Shown piece after piece: positions 17,444 to 17,755 of a stretch of 40,801 bases of DNA. The notes beneath the pieces were generated by a model that made no database searches, was not told where the DNA came from, and saw only the letters and a program-made list of their open reading frames with translations. Every line of letters begins with the position of its first letter. Position 1 is the first letter of the stretch. The position numbers and the translations under genes are program-made. Source of the DNA: Candidatus Heimdallarchaeota archaeon (GTDB lineage Archaea; Asgardarchaeota; Heimdallarchaeia; Heimdallarchaeales; Heimdallarchaeaceae). The stretch lies in the NCBI GenBank assembly GCA_030608385.1, contig JAUWEG010000011.1, positions 1 through 40,801 of the forward strand. The letters are read 5' to 3'.

Positions 17444-17563
17444 AATATATCCTCAAACAAAATGAAACTAGGAGATTATTATATGTTAGCATTCACAAAA
17501 AAACAAAGAAGCGGAACAAAAAACTTTTAATGGAAAGAAGAAGAAAAAGGTTAAGACATGGGT

Positions 17564-17672
17564 GCCCAGATAGCTTAGCTGGGAGAGCGCTGGACTGAAG
17601 ATCCAGTTGTCGCGTGTTCAAGAATTGTTTCAGATGCGTTCTGAAACGTTGAATATCACGCTCTGGGCTCCA
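17564..17672 (+). tRNA. tRNA-Phe (GAA) with 33-nt T-loop intron at 17623-17655
   Basis: Acceptor GCCCAGA/TCTGGGC, anticodon arm CTGGA CTGAAGA TCCAG, T-stem GCGTG/CACGC; spliced T-loop TTCAAGT; encoded CCA. Confidence 0.9.
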
Positions 17673-17755
17673 ATTTTTCTTTCTTCAAATTACTCATTGC
17701 CTTTAATTAGTAATTCTTCTTTTTAGGTTTTTAAGCATAAAACCAGTATTTATTC

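Follow-up and report, generated by a model that had tools for sequence, protein, structure and literature searches.

Organization of the tRNA-Phe gene

Can a tRNA gene whose T-loop is interrupted by 33 nucleotides give rise to a working tRNA, and by what route did the insert come to lie there? The question is raised by positions 17564-17672 (+ strand) of the window, the whole 40,801-nt stretch of Candidatus Heimdallarchaeota DNA analysed herein. The answer that we hold with high confidence is that the locus is a functional tRNA-Phe(GAA) gene, probably the only one, in an Asgard archaeon of Heimdallarchaeia type. It carries a 33-nt bulge-helix-bulge (BHB) intron at position 59/60 that would be spliced by an alpha plus beta EndA endonuclease and RtcB, and this intron is one of a small family spread among tRNA T-loops.

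The gene is complete, with a 7-bp acceptor stem, a 5-bp anticodon stem, a 5-bp T-stem and an encoded CCA, and its T-loop is 40 nt long as encoded, with the insert (17623-17655) at position 59/60. The features of the locus are as follows.

17523-17531, + strand: TATA-like A/T-rich element ACTTTTAAT, about 33-41 nt upstream of tRNA-Phe
17564-17622, + strand: 5' exon of tRNA-Phe, with acceptor GCCCAGA, D-arm and anticodon arm
17595-17601, + strand: anticodon loop CTGAAGA in the 5' exon, anticodon GAA at 17597-17599
17612-17616, + strand: T-stem GCGTG in the 5' exon, which also holds variable TTGTC and T-loop TTCAAG (54-59)
17617-17620, + strand: 5' strand of the central helix, TTCA (T54-A57), joined by A17621 in the lowest-energy fold
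17621-17623, + strand: 5' bulge AGA, splice site 17622/17623 (alternatively, 4-nt bulge GAAT at 17622-17625)
17623-17655, + strand: predicted intron at 59/60, 33 nt, AATTGTTTCAGATGCGTTCTGAAACGTTGAATA, exactly missing in congener G016
17627-17647, + strand: inner hairpin GTTTCAGA-TGCGT-TCTGAAAC, stems 17627-17634 and 17640-17647
17650-17653, + strand: 3' strand of the central helix, TGAA, joined by T17649 in the lowest-energy fold
17654-17656, + strand: 3' bulge TAT in the fold, splice site 17655/17656
17656-17672, + strand: 3' exon, with T60, T-stem CACGC (17657-17661) and acceptor TCTGGGC (17662-17668)
17669, + strand: discriminator U73 in the 3' exon, followed by the encoded CCA (17670-17672)
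17674-17678, + strand: T-run 3' of the gene, a possible terminator

With the unspliced gene as input, no tRNA was reported by ARAGORN or Rfam. After deletion of the insert, 76 nt are left, which ARAGORN calls as tRNA-Phe(gaa), and the T-loop reads TTCAAGT. The preliminary description of this DNA, in which a tRNA-Phe gene with a 33-nt intron at 59/60 was proposed, agrees with our analysis in all coordinates, and those of its suggested checks that could be made by computation speak for it.

U is an unusual discriminator for archaeal tRNA-Phe, a point against the main reading; A73 is found in some congeners (for instance G011, G019, G023 and G024), and a U before CCA is also carried by tRNA-Ser genes of the window genome. 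Elsewhere in the window, positions 1242-2549 hold an open reading frame with a long acidic low-complexity tail (repeats VEDVVED and EEIVEE).

Predicted structure of the insert

The 109-nt transcript is predicted to fold 3.7 standard deviations below its dinucleotide shuffles (z -3.7; 0 of 200 as low), and an in-register 4-bp central helix together with a hairpin with 9 or more pairs was obtained for 0.06% of 20,000 shuffled inserts. The outer helix, the 4-bp central helix and a 3-nt 3' bulge are all present in the pre-tRNA of the window. The strict BHB (4-bp central helix, 3-nt bulges) has an energy of -15.1 kcal/mol and the minimum-energy fold one of -18.0 kcal/mol, the latter with a 5-bp central helix (TTCAA/TTGAA) and a 4-nt 5' bulge (GAAU); the 3' bulge is 3 nt in both. 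Two 3-nt bulges had been claimed for this insert. The central helix and the 3' bulge stand, while a BHB strictly canonical on both sides was set aside, as the minimum-energy fold does not have a 3-nt bulge on the 5' side. As modelled, the insert is a BHB with a canonical 3' bulge and an ambiguous or somewhat relaxed 5' side, which we call relaxed because the minimum-energy fold leaves 4 nt in the 5' bulge. This departure of the 5' bulge counts against the main reading, as does an inner helix that is not stacked on the central helix in several congeners.

Among 22 introns of the Phe/Tyr/Pro family from the window genus, standard pairs account for 99.3% of the cells of T-stem, central helix and inner core (97.7% for the TGAA strand), and all slid pairing registers reach 57% or less. 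Two-sided changes were seen in the T-stem, and one-sided TGAA/TGGA changes preserve pairing in the central helix, where two-sided changes are not possible because the exon-side TTCA is fixed by tRNA function. Covariation was counted for these three parts alone, since gap placement by MAFFT is faulty outside the inner core. A hairpin apex of the form AGA-YGCGY-TCT is common to nearly all introns of the family. The idea that the apex loop pairs with another part of the tRNA found no support and was abandoned.

The tRNA-Phe locus in congeners and across the phylum

In congener G016, tRNA-Phe is intronless and shows no difference, over its 76 nt, from the spliced form predicted for the window gene, with matching neighbours at the locus (zinc-ribbon protein, GTPase-like protein and aldo-keto reductase). 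The proposal that removal of 17623-17655 restores TTCAAGT is thereby confirmed with a natural sequence. G002 and G003, two genomes of the sister genus, have an intronless tRNA-Phe as well. Exactly at 59/60, an insert of 32-33 nt is present in at least 14 further congeners (about one nt less in G021, which has a 37/38 intron in addition). The insert is also present in tRNA-Phe of named Candidatus Heimdallarchaeota MAG records, and in identical form in the record of isolate RS_12_51 (L016). As the named relatives belong to Heimdallarchaeota, an origin of the DNA in Thermoproteales was rejected. The upstream element ACTTTTAAT is kept at the Phe loci of congeners, the intronless locus included, and is a putative promoter from which the gene would be transcribed.

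A survey of 231 genomes of the phylum, using a pattern that required neither an intron nor a BHB sequence, gave tRNA-Phe candidates in many of them. Besides the window genus, Hodarchaeum mangrovi (G037) has a T-loop insert, and so, with a patchy distribution, do genomes matching named Loki-, Thor- and Njordarchaeal records. When 43 inserts were placed in BHB register (one false intron call, in G051, being left out), 29 paired at 4/4 and 9 at 3/4 positions. The other 5, family f28 (G191, G199, G204, G215 and G211), do not fit the 59/60 register and may represent another T-loop insertion site; one example in tRNA-Phe reads TTCA-CATGG...GGCCGA-AAAT. Inserts at 59/60 with TGAA were also observed in tRNA-Phe of Nanoarchaeota, Aenigmatarchaeota and Woesearchaeota records (L084, L089 and L070). 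Some matches of the pattern scan, to intronless tRNAs or in bacteria, were recognised on parsing as due to chance and discarded.

A family of introns in tRNA-Phe, tRNA-Tyr and tRNA-Pro

The 17-nt core TTTCAGATGCGTTCTGA (window 17628-17644) occurs exactly twice in the window genome (G000 in the genus comparison). The second copy, at C89:6852, lies inside a tRNA-Tyr(GTA) gene with introns at both 37/38 and 59/60 (G000:C89, locus L163, around 1385-1545), likewise missed by ARAGORN and Rfam. Such genes escape standard annotation, so that an Asgard MAG can give the false impression of being devoid of tRNA-Phe and tRNA-Tyr. The core was also found at 59/60 of tRNA-Pro(TGG) in congeners G005, G006, G017 and G021; tRNA-Pro is intronless in G000, G010, G013, G014 and G022. 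For tRNA-Tyr, a 59/60 intron with the TTTCAGATGCGTTCTGA core is present in G000 and G013, a diverged one keeping AGA-NGCGY-TCT in G008, G017 and G022, and none in 15 other congeners. All the family sites found are at position 59/60 of three tRNAs (Phe, Tyr and Pro). A core search allowing 3 mismatches gave mostly noise and was replaced by a later search.

The distribution is patchy even within the clade G000/G013/G017/G015/G006, whose EndA alpha genes, the one short gene from which relatedness within the genus was judged, are 91-96% identical in DNA: G000 and G013 carry the Tyr and lack the Pro intron, G017 carries the Pro intron and the other type of Tyr intron, G006 carries Pro without Tyr, and G015 lacks Tyr. 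Such differing states between close relatives indicate recent gain, loss or exchange. Even between genomes in which the identity of the EndA alpha genes has fallen to about 70%, the core of the Phe intron has hardly changed. The apex AGA-YGCGY-TCT is nearly invariant, even though the interiors of such introns are not expected to be conserved.

Near-identical introns in different isotypes, patchy among relatives, resemble the intron transposition of Thermoproteales, and the sequence comparison suggests that the family spread among the T-loops of Phe, Tyr and Pro tRNA genes within the genus. A serious competitor, to which we assign a somewhat less than even chance, is that this took place by gene conversion between near-identical T-arms, or that an older multi-copy state was followed by losses, instead of transposition (reverse splicing, reverse transcription and recombination). 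The intronless Tyr and Pro T-arms are identical (CCGTGTTCAAATCACGG) and could seed conversion, while the Phe T-arm differs from both; inheritance with loss is plausible since many congeners are without the Tyr and Pro introns, but the mosaic of Tyr and Pro states in the clade, with two types of Tyr intron, calls for several events either way. With respect to the spread by transposition, we raise the tentative idea, which we consider less likely than not, that this is a still-mobile BHB intron family, inserted at the RNA level at 59/60 of several tRNAs, with an apex that stays near-constant while the host genes have diverged to about 70% DNA identity. If so, the interior of the intron would do something, be it in mobility, in splicing efficiency or in guiding a modification.

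Splicing enzymes and the proposed fate of the transcript

Two separate PF01974 (EndA) genes, each encoding about 180-190 aa, are present in the window genome, together with a gene for RtcB ligase. EndA alpha (C205), 183 aa from its ATG, has the catalytic Tyr, His and Lys, and its best match is the alpha subunit of Aeropyrum pernix (3p1z_B, E 5.5e-38), to which the Crenarchaea-specific loop (CSL) could be aligned, with Lys39 at the position of A. pernix K44. The CSL lysine is responsible for the broad substrate specificity of EndA (PMC6379350). The EndA beta-like protein (C47) has neither the CSL nor the catalytic pattern, and the two would form one enzyme (heterotetramer). The architecture of EndA, on which cleavage at this site was said to depend, turned out to be of the two-gene alpha plus beta type with the broad-specificity loop. 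Two EndA genes are found in most genomes of the phylum, and a GxPxGxRKPK-like CSL, with the lysine, is present in 31 of 31 Asgard EndA alphas aligned (that of the window genome plus 30 others; loci L009 and L231-L260). Judging from these alignments, the CSL appears widespread in Asgard archaea, so that, contrary to its name, it also occurs outside Crenarchaea.

The 33-nt insert is almost certainly cut out by the cell. In the splicing pathway that we infer, the T-arm and insert of the pre-tRNA would fold into T-stem, bulge, TTCA:TGAA helix, bulge and hairpin; EndA alpha (Tyr/His/Lys plus the CSL-type loop), with its separate beta, would cut on the 3' side of G59 and on the 5' side of U60; and the exons would be joined by RtcB to give a normal 76-nt tRNA. 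Retention of the insert, giving a mature tRNA with an extended T-arm, is conceivable in that T-stem and insert make up one stable extended hairpin. We nevertheless regard it as highly improbable: it would disrupt the contacts between T-loop and D-loop that are needed for the L-shape of tRNA, the insert is absent in G016, many species lack the Tyr and Pro inserts, the BHB layout is followed, and EndA and RtcB are present.

A second intact tRNA-Phe, whose existence had been raised as a point against the intron, was sought, and none was found in the window genome, a fragmented MAG that is 88.8% complete, so that another copy could be missing from it. Three near matches to the Phe anticodon stem-loop have no tRNA context around them, and a 'Phe' called by ARAGORN at C190 is a mis-call, its sequence being that of an intron-containing tRNA-Ile(GAT). 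The same genome has a tRNA-like gene without clear isotype (L127, G000:C72:6538-6609), with an 8-nt anticodon loop GTTTAGGC, on a contig that also bears two tRNA-Gln genes; an assembly error, an odd tRNA or a pseudogene are all possible.

That the Phe gene itself is a decaying pseudogene with a random T-loop insertion, as its being overlooked by standard gene finders might suggest, is very hard to sustain, because all stems are intact, the exons equal the intronless gene of G016, the insert lies at one exact site throughout the genus with its BHB pairing kept, and this is the only tRNA-Phe found, with its upstream A/T-rich element retained.

Comparison with known tRNA introns

Archaeal tRNA introns at non-canonical positions were reportedly described by Marck & Grosjean 2003 and Sugahara 2008. 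Position 59/60, BHB introns and non-canonical tRNA introns of Asgard archaea are already known, the first being a listed non-canonical position in archaea (PMC4090602). Our literature search, which covered only part of the subscription journals, brought up no paper that deals with position 59/60 in Heimdallarchaeia, with the present intron family or with a CSL in the EndA of Asgard archaea.

Heimdallarchaeia are often placed near the origin of eukaryotes. If the splicing proposed above takes place, non-canonical, relaxed-BHB tRNA splicing extends to this branch of Asgard archaea. The gain and loss of tRNA introns can be tested directly in this genus, where some species carry an intron at a given base and close relatives lack it there.

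The present intron shares with the known non-canonical tRNA introns of archaea a BHB at the junction, the T-loop position 59/60, the short length and a host with a two-gene EndA. These are classically from Crenarchaeota, Nanoarchaeota and Thaumarchaeota, whereas the present host belongs to a Heimdallarchaeia-type Asgard genus. The predicted EndA resembles the (alpha beta)2 enzyme of A. pernix (3p1z) in having an alpha with Tyr/His/Lys and the CSL lysine and a separate non-catalytic beta, but it is from an Asgard genome. In Atabeyarchaeia and Freyarchaeia, introns are reported in 92-95% of tRNA genes, often at non-canonical positions (PMC11291895, 2024); these are likewise Asgard tRNA introns, in other Asgard classes, and the parts of that report available to us make no mention of 59/60 in tRNA-Phe, the intron family or the EndA loop. 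As far as the transposition of Thermoproteales tRNA introns (Fujishima et al. 2010) can be followed through later accounts (PMC4033280, PMC4090602), the two systems have in common that several tRNA genes carry introns of near-identical sequence, with a patchy distribution over related species; the window genus differs in that three tRNAs are involved, always at 59/60 as found, in another phylum and on a smaller scale.
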